Translations under genes and position numbers: made by a program | Origin: Micavibrio sp. | GTDB lineage: Bacteria; Pseudomonadota; Alphaproteobacteria; Micavibrionales; Micavibrionaceae | Direction: 5' to 3' | DNA length: 64,000 nucleotides | Assembly: GCA_021604545.1 (NCBI GenBank) | Contig: BQJE01000006.1 | Location: 1-64,000, forward strand | Shown here: piece after piece, positions 10,625 to 23,135 of the stretch | Position numbering within the stretch: the first letter of the stretch is position 1 | Layout of the letters: every line of letters starts with the position of its first letter | Notes under the pieces: generated by a model | Told to the model about the DNA's origin: nothing | Databases searched by the model: none | The model's input: the letters and a program-made list of their open reading frames with translations, nothing else

Positions 10625-12760
10625 ATGTCCGAGGCCGTCGCCGATACGCCACTGCCCAGACTTCGTAACGACATCAACCTTCATCGTGGTCCAAGCGAAA
10701 GTGACGGCTCACCAACATGGACGCTTTATGATCCGCCATCCAACAGGTTTTTTCGCGTTGGATGGCTGGAATTTGAATGCCTGGCCCGCTTTGCTCGATC
10801 ACAGACGGTTAGCGAGGTGGTACGATCCGTCAACACTGAAACACCGCTTCAGGTCTCGGATGAGGACGTGGGGGATCTGGTGCAGTTTCTGATTTCGAAT
10901 GAACTAATCGTCGTCGTCACGTCCCAGGCAACTGAACGCTTTACAAAATTGGAAGGGCTTAGACAAAAAGCGTGGTGGAATAAGTTTCTCCACGGTTACC
11001 TGTTCTTTATTATTCCACTAATACGGCCAGACAGGTTTTTGCAAAGAACCCTCCCCTATATCCGCCCACTCTTAAGCCAAAAGTTTTTTGTCTCCATGTT
11101 GTGTCTTCTTGGCTATGGATTTTATCTAACGCTCAATCGATGGGATGAATTCGCTAATACCTTCATGCATTTTTTTACATGGGAAGGATTAACATTTTAT
11201 ATCATTACGATTTCAGGCGTTAAAATCCTGCATGAAATGGGGCACGCTTTTGTGGCGACCAAAGCCGGTGTGCGTGTGTCCTCCATGGGTGTGGCGTTTA
11301 TCGTTCTCTACCCGGTTTTATTCACCGAAACCACAGGGGCGTGGAAGCTTCCCGATCGCCATAGACGGCTCCTCATAGGCGCTGGCGGGGTGATGGCAGA
11401 GATTTGTGTCGCGGCGATTGCGCTGCTGCTTTGGCATATCTTGCCTGATGGATCGGCGCGCAGTGTTGCCTTTTTTGTTGCCACCGTATCATTGGCTGGC
11501 TCATTCCTGATCAACCTTAATCCGTTTATGCGTTTTGATGGCTATTATCTGCTCTCTGACGGTTTGGGAATGGACAATCTACAAGGGCGCGCTTTTGCCC
11601 TGGCAAAATGGAACATGCGAAGGTTTTTGTTTGGCTGGTCTGATCCCGTACCGGAAGATTTTAAAAAGCCGCTGCGCCGCCTCCTCTATGTATACGCCTA
11701 CGGCACATGGCTATACCGTTTCTTCCTGTTTCTTGGGATCGCTGTTTTGGTTTATACTTTATTCTTTAAACCTCTGGGGCCGTTCTTAATGGCTTTGGAG
11801 CTCGCATGGTTTATCGGACTTCCTATATACAGGGAAGTCATTATTTGGTGGAAGGAGCGCAGAAAAATGACCTGGAACTCTGCAAGCAAGCGTACAGTCG
11901 GGACTCTTGGTTTCCTGCTGGTTCTGGCCTTTATCCCCTGGCATAGCACGGTACGCGTACCCTCTTACGTTCAGGCAAAAGATTACACACGACTACACCC
12001 ACCAGCGCCGGCGCGTATTGCAGAGGCGCTTGTAGAGCAAGGACAAAGAGTTAAATCAGGCGATATTCTTTTAAAACTTGAATCCCCTGTGCTTGACCAT
12101 CGCATTGCACAGGCAAAAAGCTCGCTTGAAACTTTAAAGGCACAAACATTACGTGAAGCGACAGATAGAAAATTGATTCATCGTGGTCAGGTGCGCAATC
12201 AACAAATTTCTGAGGCACAAGCCGCATTTGATGGCCTACAACAGCAAAAAGACAGGCTCATCATGCGCGCACCTTTTGATGGCGTTGTGGCGGAGAAGGC
12301 TTTTGATCTACACAAAGGGCGCTGGGTCGGTGAAAAGCAATCACTGATCCATTTGGTAAAATTTGACCGTGCTGTGCTGCGCGGTTATGTGCGTGAAAAT
12401 GATATTCGCCGTATTGAGAACGGCGCAACAGGGCGGTTTTACCCGGATACCGGCATATCCGGTGCGATGACAGTTCAAGTGAAGGAAATCAGCCGCACCA
12501 ATGCCTCCACGATTGAACGCCCGGATCTGGCTTCCACCTATGGCGGATCGGTGGCGATTGCACAATCCGGTGGTAACAGCAGCGCACTTGTTCCGCACGA
12601 TGCAGTTTATGCTGTTTTGATGGAGCCTGTAAGTCCAGAGACCGCTGTGCCGCCGCATCTTTTATCTGGTGAAGTTAAATTAAAGGGTGAGCGCAAAAGT
12701 TTTGCGGCGCGCGCCTTTACCCGTATAGCAGCACTTGTAGTCCGTGAGTCTGGATTCTAG
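10625..12760 (+). CDS. PqqD-like/M50 site-2 protease/HlyD fusion
   Basis: 711-aa polytopic membrane protein. Residues about 1-95 (with YDPPSNRFFRVGWLEFE and a final QFLISNELIVV) resemble PqqD-type peptide-recognition domains. A multi-span M50 metalloprotease core follows, with zinc motif HEMGH at about 203-207 and the second motif NLNPFMRFDGYYLL with Asp about 305; both sets are intact. After more helices, residues from about 447 form an HlyD adaptor (HPPAPARIAEALVEQGQRV; MRAPFDGVVAEKAFDLHKG). The family is known from peptide and bacteriocin modification/export loci. Here the neighbours are LEPR-XLL proteins, so it may read and cleave their N-terminal motif in the membrane (inference). The start is 2 bp after the previous stop. 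Confidence 0.85.
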   Translation: MSEAVADTPLPRLRNDINLHRGPSESDGSPTWTLYDPPSNRFFRVGWLEFECLARFARSQTVSEVVRSVNTETPLQVSDEDVGDLVQFLISNELIVVVTSQATERFTKLEGLRQKAWWNKFLHGYLFFIIPLIRPDRFLQRTLPYIRPLLSQKFFVSMLCLLGYGFYLTLNRWDEFANTFMHFFTWEGLTFYIITISGVKILHEMGHAFVATKAGVRVSSMGVAFIVLYPVLFTETTGAWKLPDRHRRLLIGAGGVMAEICVAAIALLLWHILPDGSARSVAFFVATVSLAGSFLINLNPFMRFDGYYLLSDGLGMDNLQGRAFALAKWNMRRFLFGWSDPVPEDFKKPLRRLLYVYAYGTWLYRFFLFLGIAVLVYTLFFKPLGPFLMALELAWFIGLPIYREVIIWWKERRKMTWNSASKRTVGTLGFLLVLAFIPWHSTVRVPSYVQAKDYTRLHPPAPARIAEALVEQGQRVKSGDILLKLESPVLDHRIAQAKSSLETLKAQTLREATDRKLIHRGQVRNQQISEAQAAFDGLQQQKDRLIMRAPFDGVVAEKAFDLHKGRWVGEKQSLIHLVKFDRAVLRGYVRENDIRRIENGATGRFYPDTGISGAMTVQVKEISRTNASTIERPDLASTYGGSVAIAQSGGNSSALVPHDAVYAVLMEPVSPETAVPPHLLSGEVKLKGERKSFAARAFTRIAALVVRESGF

Positions 12761-12924: not shown

Positions 12925-14475
12925 TTATCTTTCGCAATCACTCTGCGCGCTTACCAGGCCCCAGCCATAGGTTTTATCATGACCAGGAGCACCGAGATCT
13001 TTAGTATTCTGCTTCATCGATTCCACAATAAGGTCGTGAGAAATTGAACCGTTGCGCAAAAGGTTTTGCGCCGCCACCGCCACGGCATGCGGCACAGCAT
13101 AGGACGTGCCTGATTTATAGGCACCGCCACCACCATCTTGTGCAGACCATATATCAACTCCGGGTGCTGCGAAATCGACATAGGCCCCACGATTGGCTTG
13201 CTTATAAACGTGCGAAGCCGCATCGATGGCGGTCACGGCAATGACGCCTTTTAATGATGCCGGATAGACCGGTGGTGCCTGCGGCCCGTTATTACCTACT
13301 GCTGCAAAAACCAGCCCCCCCTTTGATGATGTTTTTTCAAAGACGCGGCCCAAAACACGGTTCGGTTTATCACCAGCCAGTGAAATATTAATCAGCCGCA
13401 CTTTGTTTTTCAGCATCCAGTCCAGCGCCTGCGCCACTGCTTCGGCTGTAGCGATATCGTCACCTTTTGGTGCTTTCCTTAGAACCGTTGCAGCATAAAG
13501 TTTGCTGCCCGGAAGCATACCGAAATAGCCACTTTCCGGTGAATTTCCAATCAGAATAGAGGCAATCGCGGTGCCATGGGCACGATCAGGCTGGCCCTTA
13601 TTCTCGAGAAAGTTTTTAGTGGCAATGTTCTGCCCTTTAAAAGCTGAATGGCTCTGGTCGATATCACCATCAATCAAACCAATGGAAATCTGCTTGATAT
13701 TTTTGAGACAGCCCGGTGCTGCGGGCCACTTAACCTTGGCTGGCGCATAAAGGCGTGGCGCGCTGGAGGAATGGTAATGATGGTTGCGGTCAATCTCTGC
13801 GTTTGGAAACGCCTCACGCATTTCGTCTATGATATCGACAATATTGCCATCAACAACGTCAAGAACCAACAGCACATCACCGAAGGCCGCAAGGTTGTGG
13901 CGGCGTAAAATAGGGTATCCCCTTTCCTTCGCATAGGATTCAATTTGGTTTGCAACATCACGCAAGGCCAAAATCAAAATTTCACCGGGCTCGGCATCAG
14001 CGGACGACATAACTGGCTGCGGTCTTTCTTCTTCATAAGGGCAAAGACGAACCTTAATATCCGTGCGCTCGACAACTTTATCGGTTCTGTGCGCATCAAC
14101 CAGAACGATATGGTAATGTTCGCTATCGTATATAGCTTTCTCGGTAGGGATCTGAACCATCAAGCGGTTTTCGCTTTTGTTGAGAACGCGCAGCGGCAAA
14201 ACATTGCTGTTATCTGCCAAGGCCGGCACAACACCATCCAGCGCCGAAAGAGAGCGGCCATTGATCGCCATCATATCGCCGGGACGGGCGCAGGCACTGG
14301 CAATGCCGGTAATTTCAGGCTTTGCTTCCGGTGGCTGGCGGCGTTCAGGTTCGCGCCCTTCACGATCCGGCACATCATCAGCCGCACCTGGTAGCGGCGC
14401 ATTCGGATCCACTTGTGCCAAAGACGGCGCGGCAATCGCAAAAATTAAAACAGTGAAAAGAATGAGCGTGCGCAT
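12925..14475 (-). CDS. Secreted S8 (subtilisin-like) serine protease
   Basis: 516 aa. The start at 14475 gives a clean signal peptide (MRTLILFTVLIFAIAAPSLA) and comes right after the anti-sigma stop. Residues about 40-130 resemble an Ig/IPT-like domain (ITGIASACARPGDMMAING); about 170-235 look like an I9-type propeptide. The catalytic domain follows with Asp about 269 (IGLIDGDID), His about 300 (AHGTAIASIL), the oxyanion Asn (AVGNNGP) and Ser about 458 (GTSYAVPHA), all intact. It is the last gene of a five-gene minus-strand operon with an ECF sigma and anti-sigma factor. A role in processing surface proteins or in signal transduction through the anti-sigma factor is inferred, not shown. Confidence 0.88.
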   Translation of the reverse strand: MRTLILFTVLIFAIAAPSLAQVDPNAPLPGAADDVPDREGREPERRQPPEAKPEITGIASACARPGDMMAINGRSLSALDGVVPALADNSNVLPLRVLNKSENRLMVQIPTEKAIYDSEHYHIVLVDAHRTDKVVERTDIKVRLCPYEEERPQPVMSSADAEPGEILILALRDVANQIESYAKERGYPILRRHNLAAFGDVLLVLDVVDGNIVDIIDEMREAFPNAEIDRNHHYHSSSAPRLYAPAKVKWPAAPGCLKNIKQISIGLIDGDIDQSHSAFKGQNIATKNFLENKGQPDRAHGTAIASILIGNSPESGYFGMLPGSKLYAATVLRKAPKGDDIATAEAVAQALDWMLKNKVRLINISLAGDKPNRVLGRVFEKTSSKGGLVFAAVGNNGPQAPPVYPASLKGVIAVTAIDAASHVYKQANRGAYVDFAAPGVDIWSAQDGGGGAYKSGTSYAVPHAVAVAAQNLLRNGSISHDLIVESMKQNTKDLGAPGHDKTYGWGLVSAQSDCER

Positions 14476-14476
14476 A

Positions 14477-15070
14477 TTACTTCTCCACCTGCGCGCTCTC
14501 AACAAGATCGTCGCGACTCTTGAGGGCCTGCACCGCTTGCTGAATATCATCATCTGTTGAAAGGTGGTAAACACCAAGCGCTGACGGCCCTTCCACAATG
14601 TTCAAATTAAGACCGAGCAACAAACCGCGAATATCGGATTCTGTCGCATCGGGCGCAAACGTCACGCTGATCTCTGCTTCGGACTGCCCACCGGCTGCTA
14701 CCAATGTGCCGCCCTGCATCCAGTGCGGCGCGACAATAATCGTCTGGATCATCAGCAATACACAAGCCGCGACAGCAATCATGCGCCATGTACGGTTTTG
14801 CTCTGATGTAATCCTTGAGCGCGCCCGCGCAATCGGATCGCTTTTCAGCTTTTCTTCCTCAAGAGATTTTTGTAAACGCTTAAGGCCCAGCTCACCGGGT
14901 GAGTTTTCAATCTCATAGGCCTTCACCTCGCGGCGCAAACCTTCAAGATAACGCAGATCATCTTTCAAAGACGGATCGTCAATGATCGCCTGTTCGACTT
15001 TGTCTTTTTCTTTGCCTCCCAATGTTCCGTTCACATAGAAGGGCAAAAGTTCCATGATGTCCTTACTCAT
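14477..15070 (-). CDS. Membrane anti-sigma factor with propeptide-like periplasmic domain
   Basis: 197 aa. The ATG at 15070 overlaps the sigma-factor stop (ATGA) and has a strong GGAGG site. The cytoplasmic N-terminus (ELLPFYVNGTLGGKEKDKVE) is the usual compact anti-sigma helix bundle without the HxxxCxxC zinc motif. One transmembrane helix follows at about 98-120 (MIAVAACVLLMIQTIIV). The periplasmic tail (SVTFAPDATESDIRGLL ... VEGPSALGVYHL ... AVQALKSRDDLVESAQ) resembles subtilase propeptide/I9-like folds. It probably holds the co-encoded ECF sigma factor at the membrane. The propeptide resemblance is by eye and suggests direct contact with the S8 protease next to it. Confidence 0.75.
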   Translation of the reverse strand: MSKDIMELLPFYVNGTLGGKEKDKVEQAIIDDPSLKDDLRYLEGLRREVKAYEIENSPGELGLKRLQKSLEEEKLKSDPIARARSRITSEQNRTWRMIAVAACVLLMIQTIIVAPHWMQGGTLVAAGGQSEAEISVTFAPDATESDIRGLLLGLNLNIVEGPSALGVYHLSTDDDIQQAVQALKSRDDLVESAQVEK

Positions 15071-15621
15071 GATCTTTCCTCCATACGGCCCTGAAGACAA
15101 TGCTTCATCGCCTGTTTGGCATGGAACATGCGCGTTTTTACAGTGTTCTCAGGACAGTCCACGATTTTGGCAATCTCGCCGTAAGCCATGTCTTCGAAAA
15201 AAGCGAGCTGCATCACAGAGCGGTGCGCCTCTTTCAATGTCTCCAGACAATGACGGACATGGCCCGCATCATCTTCGCTAATCAAACACGAAACAGCGTC
15301 CGGCGTTTCATCAACAATTTCCGGGAAATTGTCCTCATCGATTAACATTGGCTTTTTCTTTCGCATTCTATCCATCGTCTTGTAATAAGCTATTCCAAAT
15401 AACCAGGTTGATACTTTAGACCTTCCTTCAAATGTTCCGGCCTTTCGCCAGACTTCAAGAAACGTCTCATTAAGTATGTCGGAGGCTTCGAAGGAATCGT
15501 TCAATTTTGACAAAATAAATCTGTAGAGGCGGTTCTCGTATAGACGAAAGAACTCCGCAAAGGCTTTCTCATCGCCCTTTGCGACCTGTTTTAACAGTTC
15601 TACGGATTCTTTCTCGCTCAT
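15067..15621 (-). CDS. ECF RNA polymerase sigma factor
   Basis: 184-aa sigma-70 family ECF factor. Region 2 is clear (FEASDILNETFLEVWRKAG, STWLFGIAYYKTMDRMRKK) and region 4 has its helix-turn-helix (YGEIAKIVDCPENTVKTRMFHAKQ). No extra C-terminal domain. The start at 15621 follows an AAGG site and lies 26 bp after the preceding gene, so it is co-transcribed with that gene. It overlaps its anti-sigma gene. Four genes 3-7 kb away share an ECF-type promoter (TGAACY, 16 bp, CGWCW), and this factor is the obvious candidate to read them (inference). No copy of that promoter was seen directly before its own operon. Confidence 0.92.
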   Translation of the reverse strand: MSEKESVELLKQVAKGDEKAFAEFFRLYENRLYRFILSKLNDSFEASDILNETFLEVWRKAGTFEGRSKVSTWLFGIAYYKTMDRMRKKKPMLIDEDNFPEIVDETPDAVSCLISEDDAGHVRHCLETLKEAHRSVMQLAFFEDMAYGEIAKIVDCPENTVKTRMFHAKQAMKHCLQGRMEERS

Positions 15622-15647: not shown

Positions 15648-16853
15648 TTAGGGCCTATGTATCGTGCGAGGAACCGAGGCCCCAAGCACCTTGCCGCTTT
15701 TACTAAAAGCGCGTACATGCCACTGATACATCCCGCCGGGCTGTAAATGCGCCAGCGACAATGCCTGCAATGACAATGTTAAATCCTTGCCTGTGACCAG
15801 CTTACCGGTCAGCGGCACATTCGGATTGTCTTTAAAAATTTCCACCTGATAGGCATGCGCGCCTTCAATGGCCTGCCAGGAAAAGACAGTACCTTTTCCA
15901 AGCCTTGCCCCATCGGCTGGGCCAATGACATTCATATTGGCGGCGACCAGATCGGATTTGTCCTTATTATCCTGCAGTACAAAATAACGCAGGATCGGAA
16001 TTTCAAAGCCGGTGGTCGTGTCCTGCACCGAAAACGATACCAAATGCAAGCCGCTCAGCTTTGTTGGCAAAGGTGGACTGACAATGCGCGTGCGGCCTTC
16101 ACCGGAGCTTACCAGTTGTTGGCGTACGACCTGAAGCACGCGGCGTCCGCCGCCGCCCAGACTGGCCGAAGCATCAACCACGCGCCATTCGCCACGCAGA
16201 AGACCGTTATTGTTAAACGATACATCAGCCACAGCATGAAGCTGGTCGCCCTGACGTACAACATCGGTGCGCGATGCGTTCTCAAAAGAAAGCTCAATCC
16301 GGCGCACAGCCAGATCGCCAGTGCCACCCAATGTGGCGAACAGGCTAATCGTACCCGGCACTGTCGTTTGCGTATCGGTAAACAGCCTGCGGATCGTGAC
16401 CGTTCCGGGCACCGCTCTTGAAATTGTTTGGGCCTGCGCCGGTGTCAGGTTAAAGGTTTCAGTAAAGACCAATATTTCCGACTCACCAACCATGCGGAAA
16501 ATCCCTGTCTGCATAATCGCGCCGCCCAGCGTGGCAACCGTTACACCGCTAATGCGCAGCTCGGCCAGCGCCGAAGACGTGACGCGTTGCGCCGTGGCTA
16601 CTGTCTCTGTCCTGTTCACCCGCCATGTGACATTGATCGCTGCCGGGTTTTTGATTGAGACATTAACCATCGCCGGTGTCGGCGTCACTGTATTCACATC
16701 GGCGCGCGCCGCACCAGCCATGCCCACTATGGACACCCCAATCACAGCCAGCACCAGAGCCAGCCTAGCGGCTAAGCGAAAACGGCGCCCTGACCCGAAA
16801 AACGGTAAAGACCTGGTAATTTGTTTCATCCTGTATTGCATTTGCGTTTCCAT
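15648..16853 (-). CDS. Secreted protein with Fn3-like C-terminus, unknown function
   Basis: 401 aa, no family recognised. The ATG at 16853 has a GGAGG site 6 nt upstream and lies 89 bp inside the end of the preceding gene. The N-terminus is basic, then a hydrophobic stretch (ALVLAVIGVSIVGMAGAARA) that looks like a late signal peptide. The rest is beta-rich: an N-terminal domain repeating Thr/Val strands, a middle part, and an Fn3-like end (YQVEIF ... MYQWHVRAFSKSGKVLG). It sits between a beta-barrel-like protein and the ECF sigma factor. A surface or periplasmic partner of the barrel protein is the simplest guess. Confidence 0.7.
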   Translation of the reverse strand: METQMQYRMKQITRSLPFFGSGRRFRLAARLALVLAVIGVSIVGMAGAARADVNTVTPTPAMVNVSIKNPAAINVTWRVNRTETVATAQRVTSSALAELRISGVTVATLGGAIMQTGIFRMVGESEILVFTETFNLTPAQAQTISRAVPGTVTIRRLFTDTQTTVPGTISLFATLGGTGDLAVRRIELSFENASRTDVVRQGDQLHAVADVSFNNNGLLRGEWRVVDASASLGGGGRRVLQVVRQQLVSSGEGRTRIVSPPLPTKLSGLHLVSFSVQDTTTGFEIPILRYFVLQDNKDKSDLVAANMNVIGPADGARLGKGTVFSWQAIEGAHAYQVEIFKDNPNVPLTGKLVTGKDLTLSLQALSLAHLQPGGMYQWHVRAFSKSGKVLGASVPRTIHRP

Positions 16854-18831
16854 TAAAATCCTCCATCGACCCTCTCACGGCCAAAGCCAGCCCAGGGCGG
16901 TTGGTTTGCGGGGCGAATAATGTCCATTCAGCCTCACTGTTTACAACGTGTCTATCAGGTGTGTCGCCACTTCCGGCCGCAAGGTTCAAATTATAATCAA
17001 ATCGTGCGGTAACCTTGTTTGGAACGATAATACCCGAAGCGCCAAGCTGTACATTCGTATTATAAGTGGTGGTGGCGAAATCCTCGTCCCGAAAGCTGCC
17101 AACCTGCACGCCACCATTAAGCTCCAGCCTGTCATTCACCGTCCAGCCTGCATTAAAACCGCTGAGGTTATTGACTGTATCGCTTGAATTATTGGCGTGA
17201 TCTTCATATTGCGACACAGTGTGTGAACCCGACCAGTACCAATTGCTATAGCTGGTGCCAAAGCCAAAAGTCGCTGAATCCGTAAGACTATTGGTATCAC
17301 CCGGCAAATACCCCACCGGCGTGTCCATACGGTCCGAATCTGAAACATAGCCTGAAAAATTTATGTACGGTGTGCCCAGAAAGGAAAGGCTTCCCTCCTG
17401 CGGATTAAAATTATACGCCGTATTAAAGTTAATGCTGCGCAGCCTGTCCGTCGGCACATTGGCCAGATCATCAACATTATTGGTTTGATGCAAAATCTGC
17501 AGGCCAGCGGATAAAGACCCCCAGTAAATATTGGTATAAGCACTATAAGCGTGTCGGTCGGCAGCAATGCCCTGATTGGCCAGGGAATTAAAAAACGTAT
17601 CAATACTTTCATATTTCCCGCCAACCACAATATCTGCGGTTTTATCAAGGAACACCGGACTGTCGAAAGGACGCGCCTCGATGGCAATAGAATGCGCACC
17701 GCTGCTATCTTCTTCAACCGCGCCAGCGCCATCAAGATCATAATCGGACATCGCATATTCACCGCGCAGCGTTAAACGCCCGCCAAAAAATCCCTTATCA
17801 GCAATCACGGCATAACCCGTACCATCCGGCCCCGTGGTACCCGTACCACCTGCTAAACCAAAACCGCCATCATCACCTTCACCATCATAATAAAGTCCAG
17901 TAATGCGCAGACCATGCAAATCATTTGAAAACGGCTTGAACGAAGCCGTCACGCCTTCAAGCCGATCATCACCATCATTCAGGCCCGTAAAATCGCGCGC
18001 ACCCGCAACCGATGTTGGGCGAAAGGCAAAAGTCGTCGCGTGCACACGCTCATCAGAGGTTCCCACCTTTAAAGACGCGCCGCGGCGATAAAAATTTGAA
18101 AACAAAAAAGAATTTACACCTATATCGTGATGACCTAATATCGCCTTGCTGCTTATCGTATCGCCGGTATAGGCGGCGGTAATATCATATTCGCCAAGAT
18201 CAATGGCATTGCCAGTCTGTGCCAAATTGCGATCACTCTGCACCAGGTAATTGGCGCGGCCGGTGACCGATAAACGATCACTACTGGCTTCACCGTTTAA
18301 ATCACCACCACCCGAAACAATAGTATGATTGGGCTGATCCGGCGGCAGATCTTCAAATAGCCTGCTGCTGACTTCTGTCATGGTATCAGCGGAAAAAGAA
18401 CTGCTGCGCAGCCAGCTTTCGGCCGCGGCCAATTCGTTTTGCGACGAATCCACTGTTGTTACGTCGCCTGCTCCCTGTTCCCCGCCGACAATGGTAAAAC
18501 TCCACTGACCGATTTGTTCACTTCCTTCAGAGGACATCCGCACAAGTTTTACAACGTGCTCACCCGCGCTCAAAGGCTCCACCGGTCGGTAAGAAAAATC
18601 ACCGCCGTCCAGAGATAAAAGTGCGGTAATATCAATCCCGTCGAGCTCAACACCCAATGTCGTCAGCTCCATCACATCAAGGTCACCTGGCAAATCAATG
18701 TGCATCGGCGCGCTTGGCCCGGACGGCGCATCAAAATTAGCCGACCAGTCGGCCAAAGCCATGCCTGCCCCGAAAAGAACGGGCGACATGGCCAAAAAAG
18801 CGGCTGAATATATGAGTGGTCTTAATTTCAT
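16765..18831 (-). CDS. Predicted outer-membrane beta-barrel protein, first gene of the sigma operon
   Basis: 688 aa with a Sec signal peptide (hydrophobic stretch ending GAGMALA). Residues about 25-110 are a small beta domain. From about 190 on, the chain alternates aromatic and glycine-rich strands (ITAAYTGDTISSKAILG, NFNTAYNFNPQ, ARFDYNLNLAAGSG) like an outer-membrane barrel. The C-terminus lacks the common final Phe (ends FSLSR), so barrel assembly is not certain. No TonB box or plug domain was seen. It heads a five-gene operon with the Fn3-like protein, ECF sigma, anti-sigma and S8 protease, so it may be the sensor or substrate channel of that module (inference). Confidence 0.65.
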   Translation of the reverse strand: MKLRPLIYSAAFLAMSPVLFGAGMALADWSANFDAPSGPSAPMHIDLPGDLDVMELTTLGVELDGIDITALLSLDGGDFSYRPVEPLSAGEHVVKLVRMSSEGSEQIGQWSFTIVGGEQGAGDVTTVDSSQNELAAAESWLRSSSFSADTMTEVSSRLFEDLPPDQPNHTIVSGGGDLNGEASSDRLSVTGRANYLVQSDRNLAQTGNAIDLGEYDITAAYTGDTISSKAILGHHDIGVNSFLFSNFYRRGASLKVGTSDERVHATTFAFRPTSVAGARDFTGLNDGDDRLEGVTASFKPFSNDLHGLRITGLYYDGEGDDGGFGLAGGTGTTGPDGTGYAVIADKGFFGGRLTLRGEYAMSDYDLDGAGAVEEDSSGAHSIAIEARPFDSPVFLDKTADIVVGGKYESIDTFFNSLANQGIAADRHAYSAYTNIYWGSLSAGLQILHQTNNVDDLANVPTDRLRSINFNTAYNFNPQEGSLSFLGTPYINFSGYVSDSDRMDTPVGYLPGDTNSLTDSATFGFGTSYSNWYWSGSHTVSQYEDHANNSSDTVNNLSGFNAGWTVNDRLELNGGVQVGSFRDEDFATTTYNTNVQLGASGIIVPNKVTARFDYNLNLAAGSGDTPDRHVVNSEAEWTLFAPQTNRPGLALAVRGSMEDFNGNANAIQDETNYQVFTVFRVRAPFSLSR

Positions 18832-18859
18832 TGTCTTATTTCATTACCGGGTTTCCTAA

Positions 18860-18895
18860 ATAAAACCGGGCCAGTTTATATGCTGGCCCGGCCCT
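18860..18895 (-). terminator. Rho-independent terminator
   Basis: On the minus strand a 9-bp stem CCGGGCCAG / CTGGCCCGG with an 8-nt loop is followed by TTTTATTT. It ends the transcript of the secreted 372-aa protein gene and stands only about 30 nt before the barrel-protein ATG. The sigma operon must therefore start in a very short space or depend on readthrough. Confidence 0.85.
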
Positions 18896-18944: not shown

Positions 18945-20063
18945 TTACTTGGTTTTGAGCATAGGTTGCCATTTTGGCGTGGCTTTTAGACTTCCAGCAC
19001 CCCCGCGACCCGGCGTTGGTGCGGTGCTGGGCCCTTTTTCGCTAGCCTTCGCACCACCAACAGCCGCACCGCTTGTGCCACCACCGCCGTCGCCTCCAAC
19101 AAGACCGCCCGGGGAATTCGCCACACAATTAACGTTATAGTGACTCCAGGGTGAGCTCACAGTTTCGCCCTCGATATCGATGCGGATCTTGCCTGTTTTG
19201 AGGCCAGTTCCGGCCAGATCATATTTATGATTAAACATAATCGTTTTAGTTTGGTCCGTCACAACCGTTTTGATATCGCTTTGGTGGCCCGCTCCATCTT
19301 TATAGCGAAACTTGACTTGCGTGTTTGCCTCTTTGGTAACAATCACACCGGACAGGTTAAGTTTGCAGGCACCGTTTAAAGTGCTAACCCCATTTGTACT
19401 GACGCTGGCCTGATCAACATCAGGAATGTTGCGCGTGGGATTTGTTGGCTCCGGTTCCGGCTGCGGTGCAGCTTTGCAATGCAAATGAAATTTTTTATGA
19501 CTCTCAAAGCTTTGCTCAACTTCTGAAATATCATTAGAACCAGGCACACCACTCATCTCATAAGATAAGGCACCATCAATTGCAAAAGTAAGTACACGAT
19601 CCTGTGAAAAAATTTGCATGTCCGATAAACCGGCGCCGCGCATCGTATTGGCCAAAGCATTACATTGCGAAATAGCGAAAGGTGCCAGCGTTCCGTAAGG
19701 GACATTGACCGGAGCTACTGTGAGGACTGTCTTGGGTCTTGGTATGGAATAGCTCGCGGAATCATAATCATTAGTGAACTGAATCCATGGTCCATTTTCT
19801 CTTTTGACTTTGACCCAGGCTTTCCAGCTTTTTACGCGACCTGAATCACCGGCATCAAGCTGTAAACCCAATTGCGCCGATAGGCTGACGAGCGGAATGG
19901 CCGGTTTGATATAGGCGCTACCATTGCTTAAAATATCAATCGTTCCCGGATTGTAAGAATTTACTTGTATAGAAGCATTATCTGCGTGTGCCTCCATTGG
20001 CAATGCGCCCAGACCCATCATCAGTATACCTGCGCTCAGTGCTAATTTTTTCATCGGTTTCAT
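18945..20063 (-). CDS. Secreted protein of the ECF regulon, unknown function (1)
   Basis: 372 aa, no family recognised. The ATG at 20063 has an AGGAGA site 6-7 nt upstream and starts a standard signal peptide (KKLALSAGILMMGLGALP, cleavage near EAHA). The mature part is beta-rich with four cysteines; a Pro/Glu hinge (PQPEPEPTNP) divides two domains, and the end is a Gly/Ala/Pro-rich tail. It shares its leader sequence and ribosome site almost exactly with the next gene upstream (20213-21514), so the two promoter regions were duplicated. It has its own ECF-type promoter and its own terminator. It is probably a periplasmic or surface protein made when the ECF sigma factor is active. Confidence 0.75.
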   Translation of the reverse strand: MKPMKKLALSAGILMMGLGALPMEAHADNASIQVNSYNPGTIDILSNGSAYIKPAIPLVSLSAQLGLQLDAGDSGRVKSWKAWVKVKRENGPWIQFTNDYDSASYSIPRPKTVLTVAPVNVPYGTLAPFAISQCNALANTMRGAGLSDMQIFSQDRVLTFAIDGALSYEMSGVPGSNDISEVEQSFESHKKFHLHCKAAPQPEPEPTNPTRNIPDVDQASVSTNGVSTLNGACKLNLSGVIVTKEANTQVKFRYKDGAGHQSDIKTVVTDQTKTIMFNHKYDLAGTGLKTGKIRIDIEGETVSSPWSHYNVNCVANSPGGLVGGDGGGGTSGAAVGGAKASEKGPSTAPTPGRGGAGSLKATPKWQPMLKTK

Positions 20064-20135
20064 TGTATCTCTCCTCATATTTGTCATGTTTTAAACTGTT
20101 TTACCCAGCCGCGCTAGAGCCGCTGTTATAAGTTC

Positions 20136-20162
20136 AGTCGTCAGGGACCGAGATAAGGTTCA
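20136..20162 (-). promoter_or_regulatory. ECF-type promoter
   Basis: Minus strand TGAACC, 16-bp spacer, CGACT, about 65-70 nt before the ATG of the 372-aa secreted protein. Same layout as three other promoters in this region. Confidence 0.75.
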
Positions 20163-20195
20163 AAAAAAACAGGCCCGCAAAGGGGCCTGTTTTAT
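20160..20195 (-). terminator. Rho-independent terminator
   Basis: Minus strand AACAGGCCCC, short loop, GGGCCTGTT, then eight T. It ends the gene at 20213-21514. Its T-run touches the -35 element of the next ECF promoter. Confidence 0.88.
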
Positions 20196-20212
20196 GAGAA
20201 TAAAGGTTAGTT

Positions 20213-21514
20213 TTAGTTAACAGGTGCCCGCTTTGGCCTTGGGGCTGGCTCGGCAGGAGCAACTTTACCCAAAGGTCCGCGCTGAGGCTTAGCTTGAACC
20301 ATGCCCTTACCCAAAGGCTCATTGCCGCCACCATTGCCATAGCCACCGATATGGCCCTGACCACCGATATTCGGATTAAGTTGTGGCTCACAACGGTGCT
20401 TCCAGGTGGCCGTGCCATAGTCTTTCCATGGACCCCAGCTTTCGCTGTCCTTGTCTTTAACCTGCGCCCGAATTTTCAGTGGATGAGAGAAGGTTTTGTT
20501 CAGCTCATTCCAGTTAAAGTTCATCGGCAACTTCGCTTTCAGCGGATAATAAATATCCATATAGTTTGCGAACTTGATATCACCATTGTGAGGGATATCT
20601 TCTGTGCCATAGATGGGATTCCCGGCATCTTCGATCATGAAGCGGATATGACCTTCACCACCGGCTTTCCAGTTCACACGGATCTTGGGGTCATTATCCG
20701 GTAAACACTTACCGAAATAATGCGGCATGTTTGGCTGGAATGTTGCTTCACCAAGATTCAAAGGCTGCTCACCGGCATCAAGTTGGTTCGGCATATTGCC
20801 CTGACCAAGCTGTGCGTTCAGAACAGGCGTTTCATTCAGAGCCGGATCACCTTTATATTTGATCTGGATCACATGGTTTTTAGTTTCATATCCGGATGAA
20901 ACCTTGTTGGTATTGTTCTGCTTTCTGCAAGCACCGCTCACCGAAAGCGGACGTTGCAGAACAATTTCCCGGTCATGCTTATAGAACTCAAGATCGGTGC
21001 CGTTGAAGGCTTGTCGTGCTTTTTCAAGCTCTGCCAAAGGATCAACACGCAAAGCCGGGTTGCCGTTTTTGACCTTGTTCAAAGGTACGGAAAACGTGCT
21101 TGGCGGCACATACTCTGGAATATCATTATTGACATACTCAGAGACCTCAAAGCTACTACTATGAAGCGTTGCACTGCTGTTAATGCCTGCTCCACTTATA
21201 TTGACTGGACCAAAGTGAGCACTCGTACCAACAACTTCCATGTTGGTGCCGTCACATTTAATAAGGCCACCGACCTCAAAATCCATCTTGCTTTCCTGAA
21301 CGTCCAGATCCAAAGCATTAATGTGCTTGTTGGCTGCTGCATTTTCAATATTTACCACCGCAGCCATGCCCGGCAAATCTATATCAACATTCTCAACATA
21401 TTGAGAGCTTCCTTGTGCTGCATGGGCTTGATTGTTAATACCGGCAGCGCCCAGACCAATGGCCAGAACAGATGCCCCTAAGATTAAAGTCTTTAATGTT
21501 TTCGTCGTTTTCAT
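20213..21514 (-). CDS. Secreted protein of the ECF regulon, unknown function (2)
   Basis: 433 aa, no family recognised. The ATG at 21514 follows AGGAGAGATACA, identical to the site of the neighbouring 372-aa gene. Signal peptide with cleavage near NQAHA. The mature protein is beta-rich with several cysteines, has a conserved-looking block shared in style with the 372-aa protein (single GAC motif in mid-protein, long strand-rich second half) and ends in a low-complexity Gly/Pro/Lys tail. It has its own ECF-type promoter and terminator. A structural role outside the inner membrane is likely; no enzyme motif was seen. Confidence 0.75.
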   Translation of the reverse strand: MKTTKTLKTLILGASVLAIGLGAAGINNQAHAAQGSSQYVENVDIDLPGMAAVVNIENAAANKHINALDLDVQESKMDFEVGGLIKCDGTNMEVVGTSAHFGPVNISGAGINSSATLHSSSFEVSEYVNNDIPEYVPPSTFSVPLNKVKNGNPALRVDPLAELEKARQAFNGTDLEFYKHDREIVLQRPLSVSGACRKQNNTNKVSSGYETKNHVIQIKYKGDPALNETPVLNAQLGQGNMPNQLDAGEQPLNLGEATFQPNMPHYFGKCLPDNDPKIRVNWKAGGEGHIRFMIEDAGNPIYGTEDIPHNGDIKFANYMDIYYPLKAKLPMNFNWNELNKTFSHPLKIRAQVKDKDSESWGPWKDYGTATWKHRCEPQLNPNIGGQGHIGGYGNGGGNEPLGKGMVQAKPQRGPLGKVAPAEPAPRPKRAPVN

Positions 21515-21586
21515 TGTATCTCTCCTGATATTCGTCATGTTTTAAACTGTTTCATACAGCCGCGCTAGTGCCGCTGTTATAGGTTC

Positions 21587-21613
21587 AGTCGTAAGGGGCC
21601 GAGACAAGGTTCA
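21587..21613 (-). promoter_or_regulatory. ECF-type promoter
   Basis: Minus strand TGAACC, 16 bp, CGACT, about 70 nt before the ATG at 21514. The whole leader down to the ribosome site is nearly the same as that of the gene starting at 20063. Confidence 0.78.
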
Positions 21614-21648
21614 AATAAAAAAAGAGCGCCGGGGAAAGCGCTCTTTTA
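21614..21648 (-). terminator. Rho-independent terminator
   Basis: Minus strand AAGAGCGC, loop TTTCCCCG, GCGCTCTT then a T-run. It ends the 202-aa CARDB-like gene and directly precedes the next ECF promoter. Confidence 0.88.
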
Positions 21649-21669
21649 TACATTAATATGTGAAATCTA

Positions 21670-22278
21670 CTACATCGCAGGCTCTACACAATGACCTGAA
21701 AAGATATTATTCAGCTCATTGGTTTCATTCACTTCGCTTTTGGAGTCAACAATAAACATGAAACTCGCTTTGCCGTTTTTCCATGCAGAAGCAGGGATGT
21801 TAAAGAAGACTTTGGCTGGTGTAAAACCGGGGCCGCCATCTGTGTAGGAATCTTCCTGCACTTTATCAGCTGGGTCGGCATCAGGGAAGATCACTTTGTT
21901 GTGAAAGTTTCCACCAGCTGCATTACCGTTATTCTTGACGCTCGTCAGAATAACTTTTGCCACGCCACCACCTTGGTTAGAACCACAGAACCCTGAGTTC
22001 GGAGCACCCGGAAGCGGACCGACAGGATTAGGAGCCAAAGGCTCCAGATCAATCGTTTTTGCACCACTCAAACCACCAGGACCTGTTGGTGGAGGTGTAT
22101 GCCCACGCTTTTGAATTGTGCCAGTAGGGTTGGTGGGGTCAGTGGGTGTTGGGGCCACATTAACATGTGGTTTTGTACGCTCGAATTGTGCCTTAGCAGC
22201 GTCGGCTGTATCGGCAAGCAACACGCCACCCATCAATAAAGATGCAGCAGCAATCATGCTTAAAGTTCTCGTTTTCAT
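21670..22278 (-). CDS. Secreted CARDB-like protein of the ECF regulon
   Basis: 202 aa. AAGGAGAAAGACG precedes the ATG. Signal peptide to about residue 27 (LLMGGVLLADTADA), then a Pro/Thr-rich linker, then one domain of about 105 residues that ends VDSKSEVNETNELNNIFSG. That ending (VxExNExNN) is typical of CARDB/cell-adhesion-type beta-sandwich domains, which bind partners or carbohydrate outside the cell. Two cysteines (CGSN and HCVEP) could close the domain. It is one of four genes sharing an ECF-type promoter and stands back to back with the plus-strand 161-aa gene. Confidence 0.75.
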   Translation of the reverse strand: MKTRTLSMIAAASLLMGGVLLADTADAAKAQFERTKPHVNVAPTPTDPTNPTGTIQKRGHTPPPTGPGGLSGAKTIDLEPLAPNPVGPLPGAPNSGFCGSNQGGGVAKVILTSVKNNGNAAGGNFHNKVIFPDADPADKVQEDSYTDGGPGFTPAKVFFNIPASAWKNGKASFMFIVDSKSEVNETNELNNIFSGHCVEPAM

Positions 22279-22341
22279 CGTCTTTCTCCTTCGAGTTTAA
22301 GTTTAAAAAAATCCTGACATTTTTGTCATTCATAAAGGCTC

Positions 22342-22368
22342 TGTCGTAAGGGCCATAACAAAAGTTCA
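22342..22368 (-). promoter_or_regulatory. ECF-type promoter
   Basis: Minus strand TGAACT, 16 bp, CGACA, about 65 nt before the ATG at 22278. Divergent from the promoter at 22493. Confidence 0.72.
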
Positions 22369-22492
22369 AAAAAACTTTCTTTAAACGGCACACCCTATAT
22401 ATAGACCCAAATGGTTCATCACAAGGGAATCAATAAAAAACTAGACAGGAGGTCTTCATTTTTGCAGTTTATTCAATAATTTAAACTTTTTT

Positions 22493-22519
22493 TGAACCAA
22501 TCGGATCGTGCCTCCGTCT
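22493..22519 (+). promoter_or_regulatory. ECF-type promoter
   Basis: Plus strand TGAACC, 16 bp, CGTCT, about 72 nt before the ATG at 22591. The spacer is unlike the other three, so this copy is independent support for the two boxes. Confidence 0.75.
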
Positions 22520-22590
22520 AATCATTACTTTCACGAGTGACTATGAACTTTAATTTTTAACAACGAACTTTATAACCAAGGAGAAAGACT

Positions 22591-23076
22591 ATGAAACGCA
22601 CATTAACTCTCGCACTGGCCGCAATCGTCCTGATCGGAACCACTTATGTTGGAACCGCACAGGCAGAAAGCCCAACACAACTGAAAGCTCAAACGGCACC
22701 AACAACGCCGGGCTTTAAAGCAACCCCTAAACCATCATCACCGGTTAGCCCGGTTGGTCAAAGCGCTGCCGGTAACTTTAAGCCAAACCCTAAGGGCCCT
22801 GTTGATGGTTTTACCACCAACATCCCTCCGGTCATGAGCTGCATGCACGGCTACAGCAAAACTGACGAGCATGTAAACACCAATGGTGCTGTTGATCGTA
22901 TGGAGTGTACTTCACCAATTTTTGAATGCCCTCACAAGAGCAAGGTGAAAAACAACAACGGTTCACCAGCCAATGGCCAAGGAATTGACATTGTAAAAAT
23001 TCCTGTCGGACCAGTTGGTGACACCAACCGCTTTAAAATCGAATATACCTGCACCTATTACTGGGCACAGGGATAA
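22591..23076 (+). CDS. Small secreted protein of the ECF regulon, unknown function
   Basis: 161 aa. AAGGAGAAAGACT precedes the ATG, nearly the same leader end as the 202-aa gene opposite. Signal peptide to about residue 25 (ending GTAQA), a Pro/Thr/Lys-rich linker with a GFKATPKP-type motif, then a compact domain with four cysteines (MSCMHG, MECTSP, FECPHK, YTCTYY) that may form two disulfides. No family recognised. It carries its own ECF-type promoter and a strong terminator, and it is the only plus-strand member of the set. Confidence 0.75.
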   Translation: MKRTLTLALAAIVLIGTTYVGTAQAESPTQLKAQTAPTTPGFKATPKPSSPVSPVGQSAAGNFKPNPKGPVDGFTTNIPPVMSCMHGYSKTDEHVNTNGAVDRMECTSPIFECPHKSKVKNNNGSPANGQGIDIVKIPVGPVGDTNRFKIEYTCTYYWAQG

Positions 23077-23100
23077 GCGATAAACCTCAACCCAACCAAA

Positions 23101-23135
23101 GAAACCGCTCCGAAATTTTCGGGGCGGTTTTTTTC
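23101..23135 (+). terminator. Rho-independent terminator
   Basis: Plus strand AAACCGCTCCGAAA / TTTTCGGGGCGGTTT hairpin followed by a T-run, 25 bp after the stop of the 161-aa gene. Confidence 0.9.

Follow-up and report, generated by a model that had tools for sequence, protein, structure and literature searches.

The first 64,000 nt of contig BQJE01000006.1 of Micavibrio sp. (the window) quite probably carry a small ECF regulon encoded by its own cassette, in which the sigma factor would activate its own operon, a nested promoter would serve the anti-sigma and protease genes, and control would be exerted mainly over the immediate neighbourhood. This reading draws on the promoter sites and their spacing, their conservation across species, synonymous constraint within the genes that contain two of them, co-occurrence with the cassette, and the loss or relocation of sites where gene order has changed. 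The features of the island are listed in Table 1.

Table 1. Features of the ECF island, in order along the window (coordinates are window positions).
Feature	Position	Strand	Remarks
S8 (subtilisin-like) serine protease; signal peptide, catalytic domain preceded by an N-terminal region	12925..14475	-	
Putative membrane anti-sigma factor; zinc-less class-I-like domain, one TM helix, periplasmic subtilisin-propeptide-like domain	14477..15070	-	
ECF sigma factor, 184 aa	15067..15621	-	Sigma70_r2, Sigma70_r4_2; TIGR02937
Predicted in-gene ECF-type promoter, TTGAACG-N16-CGACATA, in codons for KLND...SDI	15475..15504	-	about 408 nt before the anti-sigma start
Exported FN3/Ig-like protein; its gene heads the sigma operon	15648..16853	-	
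Outer-membrane barrel, about 26 strands, N-terminal Ig-like domain; hosts in-gene promoter	16765..18831	-	structure model
Predicted in-gene ECF-type promoter, 3' end of barrel gene	16960..16989	-	109 nt before the FN3-like gene
Terminator between F7 and barrel gene, possible attenuator	18862..18895	-	folding
Exported protein F7 (target)	18945..20087	-	no Pfam match
ECF-type promoter of F7	20134..20163 (core 20136-20162)	-	duplicate of the 21585..21614 promoter region
Terminator after F5	20166..20193	-	folding; T-run reaches into the following -35 box
Exported protein F5 (target)	20213..21538	-	homologues near 8 other cassettes
ECF-type promoter of F5	21585..21614 (core 21587-21613)	-	abuts the terminator of the upstream gene
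Terminator after the CARDB-like gene	21620..21647	-	folding; abuts the next promoter
Exported CARDB-like protein (target)	21670..22278	-	E 2.4e-4, slightly below the curated threshold
ECF-type promoter of the CARDB-like gene	22340..22369 (core 22342-22368)	-	G003: boxes kept, spacer differs
ECF-type promoter of F6	22492..22521 (core 22493-22519)	+	boxes kept in G003
Exported Cys-containing protein F6 (target)	22591..23076	+	
Terminator after F6	23098..23134	+	folding

The promoter motif and its intergenic copies

The first-pass annotation had placed TGAACY-N16-CGWCW before four neighbouring genes for exported proteins. All four sites are there, each with a spacer of exactly 16 nt, and the distance from box to start, which had been put at 65-75 nt, comes to 72, 72, 64 and 72 nt when measured from the -10 box to starts preceded by ribosome sites. 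The window holds five matches to this pattern against 0.11 expected; the fifth, absent from that annotation, lies at 16962-16988 on the minus strand. A further copy, with G instead of C after TGAAC, is found in the sigma gene, and while the count of four is correct for the intergenic sites, the total for the island is six.

Comparison of about 20 related loci refined the motif to TTGAAC[C/G]-N16-CGACNNA. The consensus over all sites reads TTTGAACC-N16-CGACNNA in the intergenic copies, and both classes of in-gene site share this frame. The refined motif occurs seven times in the 2.15-Mb genome, six of these in the roughly 7 kb between 15475 and 22521, and its reversed control once. Strict matches number four here and four in the related genome G003, all of them only at the cassette, and a tally by inspection of 92 relatives without the cassette gave 74 matches versus 68 for the reversed pattern, which is background. 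Because six of the seven genomic matches fall in the island and relatives lacking the cassette are at background, the system seems to reach hardly beyond its own island in Micavibrio sp. Other pattern matches in the genome (L001-L007) lacked the T-rich flank and were rejected, the refined consensus leaving one outside the island; a looser pattern, GAAC-N16-19-CGTC, was at chance level. The spacing is equally constrained elsewhere: in 14 related cassette loci (207 kb) TGAACC-N16-CGWC occurs 26 times and other spacer lengths 0-4 times, and the peak at 16 is repeated (13 vs 0-2) in five later loci found through a different protein, FN3.

The boxes had been said to be conserved on their own. In G003, whose sigma factor is 97% identical, the intergenic boxes are indeed kept while the spacers have changed, but within the island the sites at 20136 and 21587 are not independent because they fall in a 136-nt duplication of 87% identity; those at 22342 and 22493 lie outside it and are independent. 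The promoter site also precedes F5 homologues at eight loci (L048, L049, L050, L051, L055, L064, L130 and L131). Transcripts of the F5/F7 type would start with a short hairpin, ACAGCGGC...GCGGCTGT, seen at 20100-20135 and 21551-21586 (minus strand) and in the leaders of L049, L050 and L131. It is weak, with two covarying pairs, and is possibly an mRNA-stabilising 5' stem.

Strong terminators between the genes, also part of the earlier description, are borne out by folding (z = -5.5, -3.5, -4.0 and -4.9), far better than shuffled sequence; a generic terminator scan and a generic sigma-70 scan did no better than shuffles, and an Rfam search gave no match in the island. Two terminators lead directly into the next promoter, their T-run doubling as the T-rich flank upstream of the -35 box. 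The associated statement that every gene forms a single unit does not cover the barrel gene, which starts about 31 nt past a strong terminator with no motif in between (18831-18895); this arrangement suggests transcription of the barrel gene by terminator read-through (attenuation). In L128 the barrel gene does have a motif upstream of it (7759).

The cassette and its proteins

When 84,980 species genomes were scanned with the alignment of the sigma factor, 17 loci with 43-97% identity were retrieved. Local clustering reveals a recurring cassette of barrel, FN3-like protein, sigma, anti-sigma and S8 protease, together with the exported proteins F5, F6 and F7. The carriers are Alphaproteobacteria of several orders, Gammaproteobacteria (Methylophaga, Pseudomonas aestuarii) and one deltaproteobacterial MAG; some of the records are MAG contigs, whose taxon labels may be wrong. 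Culturable carriers are Shimia abyssi DSM 100673, Pseudomonas aestuarii and Methylophaga sp. OBS4. One Rhodospirillales MAG (G103) has two copies of the cassette (L056 and L058), where the motif precedes genes for large exported, RTX-like or repeat proteins. The motif thus follows the sigma cassette across genomes, which supports the original reading of an ECF-promoter regulon; neither the two in-gene sites nor the surrounding cassette figured in it. Next to the island (10625-12760, plus strand) is a gene predicted to encode an M50-like intramembrane metalloprotease joined to a HlyD-type adaptor (daptide_HExxH and RND_mfp matches below cut-off); it was dropped as a module member since its position by the cassette is not conserved.

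The sigma protein consists of sigma2 and sigma4 domains only, joined by a short linker, as is characteristic of ECF (group IV) factors. The autoregulated promoter with AAC and CG boxes that also characterizes these factors is seen at the level of sequence only, the site being inside the barrel gene. The anti-sigma gene overlaps that of the sigma factor. Its product has a zf-HC2-like N-terminus and an NF052375 match below cut-off; the N-terminal domain is helical in the AF2 model, 10 of the 16 members match zf-HC2 weakly, and no zinc ligands are visible in the alignment. The periplasmic domain is modelled by AF2 as a babbab fold (pLDDT about 90-95). Foldseek matches of the protein include several propeptides of subtilisins (1scj_B, 1spb_P, 2z56_B with TM 0.75 of target), POIA1 and pro-subtilisins, with E-values (0.04-0.2) that are weak because the whole anti-sigma model was used as the query. 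Three anti-sigma members have a match to Pfam Fervidolysin_NPro-like, and an hhalign comparison of the anti-sigma profile with the N-terminal region of the partner protease was not significant (E 0.19). The protease itself is a clear S8 member (PF00082, E 6e-32), with D269, H300 and S458 invariant in 14 sequences.

PDB profile searches with the anti-sigma and FN3 proteins gave nothing useful, and the structure search with the barrel returned no close relative, only generic barrels, the best at TM 0.42-0.44 (6r2q_B, a chain of the Mtr complex), from which no assignment was made. No Pfam family was found for the barrel, F5, F6 or F7. F5 and F7 (here and in L049-L051, L057 and L064) end in Pro-rich tails with short basic termini, e.g. 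PKPKRAPLN, PKPLRLKSK and KTLKLN, which may act as a signal for sorting by the barrel/FN3 pair.

Sites within the barrel and sigma genes

The barrel-internal site lies within 104 bp that are 100% identical between G003 and the present genome, the gene being about 81% identical elsewhere; the FN3 reading frame is closed in this 104-bp block, which is therefore not dual-coding there. Excess synonymous-codon conservation, scored against the codon use of each species, peaks on the in-gene -35 and -10 boxes of both genes, where the top windows fall (of 662 in the barrel gene and 178 in the sigma gene). Constraint also runs past the -10 box into the transcribed part. Under a null preserving the amino acids, the barrel site is carried at 13 loci against 0.33 expected, these 13 genes having been chosen as carriers (17 loci have the barrel 3' end, by inspection), and the sigma site is kept in 18 of 22 sigma genes against 1.02 expected; shared ancestry is ignored in this null, and its tail probabilities are only indicative. 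The barrel-internal site is missing from L052 (a near miss), L057, L063 and L064, and the sigma-internal site from L055, L062, L064 and G803. Three barrel genes and one sigma gene have a Leu to Met change (TTG to ATG) that retains TGAAC. Five further genomes, found with the FN3 protein alone, have the barrel site in 5/5 and the sigma site in 4/5 cases.

Two of the exceptions are informative about the sigma-internal site. In G803 (L132) the sigma gene still specifies KLNDPFEAAD, using CTG AAT...GCT GAC, and the motif has been lost synonymously; there the anti-sigma and protease genes are about 10 kb away from the sigma gene. In the Pseudomonas locus L064 the sigma gene also lacks the site, and one is present in the gap between the sigma and anti-sigma genes, 54 nt before the anti-sigma start. 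Because it has been relocated in G803 and L064, the site follows the anti-sigma gene, as its promoter should. The motif of G803 (L132:857) lies just before an intact anti-sigma/protease pair, in what is left of a sigma gene: a degenerate stretch that is still in frame and closes with a stop codon. This remnant, in which the in-gene promoter is the core that can still be recognized, matches the sigma gene at 37/47 nt, with an alignment score of 23 against a shuffle maximum of 15.

These data bear on three other explanations. The in-gene matches might reflect no more than conserved protein sequence (YNLN..GD in the barrel, KLND..D in the sigma factor), since the amino acids there are fairly conserved and sigma-factor region 2 is conserved in general. 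We give this very little credence: the codon nulls for both sites speak against it, as do the Leu to Met changes that retain TGAAC, the retention of the protein but not the motif in G803 where the anti-sigma gene is no longer downstream, the same spacing as in the intergenic promoters, and the absence of any motif match at the aligned position in 27 more distant ECF loci. That the in-gene stretches yield regulatory small RNAs or RNA structures rather than downstream mRNAs would account for the constraint beyond the -10 box and has a known parallel in the RpoE-dependent MicL, from within cutC. Both sites, however, lead straight into genes with good ribosome sites, and in G803 and L064 the promoter stands directly before the anti-sigma gene, which makes this explanation improbable, although a small RNA could coexist with the mRNAs of the in-gene promoters.

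The remaining explanation concerns the reader of the motif, which might be another ECF sigma of the host, such as an EcfG-type general stress sigma, with the neighbouring sigma incidental. AAC and CG boxes are shared by many ECF sigma factors (reviewed in PMC8103513), and the genome has two other ECF genes. The motif nonetheless goes with the cassette: it recurs beside the cassette sigma in several classes, whereas relatives with other ECF factors and without the cassette show it at background only. Since the canonical EcfG -10 box is moreover CGTT and that of the island CGAC, recognition by another host sigma is highly improbable.

Proposed mechanism and relation to known systems

In the cassette-encoded regulon that we favour, the island sigma would recognize the refined motif and produce single-gene transcripts of exported proteins from the four intergenic sites. 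The barrel-internal site would give a transcript of the FN3-like, sigma, anti-sigma and S8 protease genes, presumably as positive feedback, and the sigma-internal site one of the anti-sigma and protease genes without sigma, presumably as negative feedback. More speculatively, the anti-sigma factor may be a membrane inhibitor with its propeptide-like periplasmic domain docked on the neighbouring S8 protease, whose state (docked or free) would set the stability of the anti-sigma factor, the protease either destroying it or being held inactive by its domain; the barrel and FN3 protein may be a surface or export device for the targets. The wider proposal of a widespread protease-coupled ECF module, with both feedback promoters within coding sequence (in the barrel gene for sigma, in the sigma region-2 codons for anti-sigma and protease) and the anti-sigma propeptide domain linking sensing to a dedicated subtilase, is put forward tentatively, as somewhat less likely than not.

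The wiring principle is already known: a sigma-dependent promoter that serves the anti-sigma gene from within the sigma gene has been shown in C. glutamicum sigH-rshA, and an in-gene promoter of an alternative sigma factor in E. coli flhC. In C. glutamicum (PMC3489674) a SigH-dependent promoter inside sigH transcribes the anti-sigma gene alone and was proposed to shut the response down, much as predicted here from sequence and evolution. Unlike the island, sigH is read from housekeeping promoters; neither a second in-gene promoter for the sigma operon nor an S8 protease, barrel or propeptide-like anti-sigma factor is described for that system (PMC3489674). In E. coli a FliA promoter inside flhC drives motAB-cheAW (PMC4183435), likewise an alternative-sigma promoter within a coding gene serving a downstream operon, but FliA is a flagellar sigma factor and flhC is not the gene that encodes it. 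The island resembles the RpoE-RseA and SigW-RsiW systems of regulated proteolysis in its ECF sigma, class-I-like membrane anti-sigma factor, envelope or exported targets and autoregulation, and differs from them in the subtilisin-propeptide-like domain of its anti-sigma factor and in the genes that accompany the latter, for a subtilase, a large barrel and an FN3-like protein. The predicted fold of that domain is like those of subtilisin propeptides and I9-type inhibitors (1scj, 1spb, POIA1), from which it differs in being membrane-anchored on an anti-sigma factor, its binding of the protease being putative. The literature searched, with the main ECF classification paper outside the search, contains no description of the cassette, of its deep conservation, of a second in-gene promoter or of an anti-sigma factor with a propeptide-like domain; an existing ECF group may already cover parts of the system.

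A whole regulon with its feedback wiring is here predicted from DNA sequence alone. The promoter kept within a sigma gene in several bacterial classes is a clear example of its kind, and its natural relocation serves as a built-in control. The island also provides a compact and possibly portable set of sigma factor, anti-sigma factor and promoters, and leads to a testable hypothesis for the gating of an anti-sigma factor by a subtilase.
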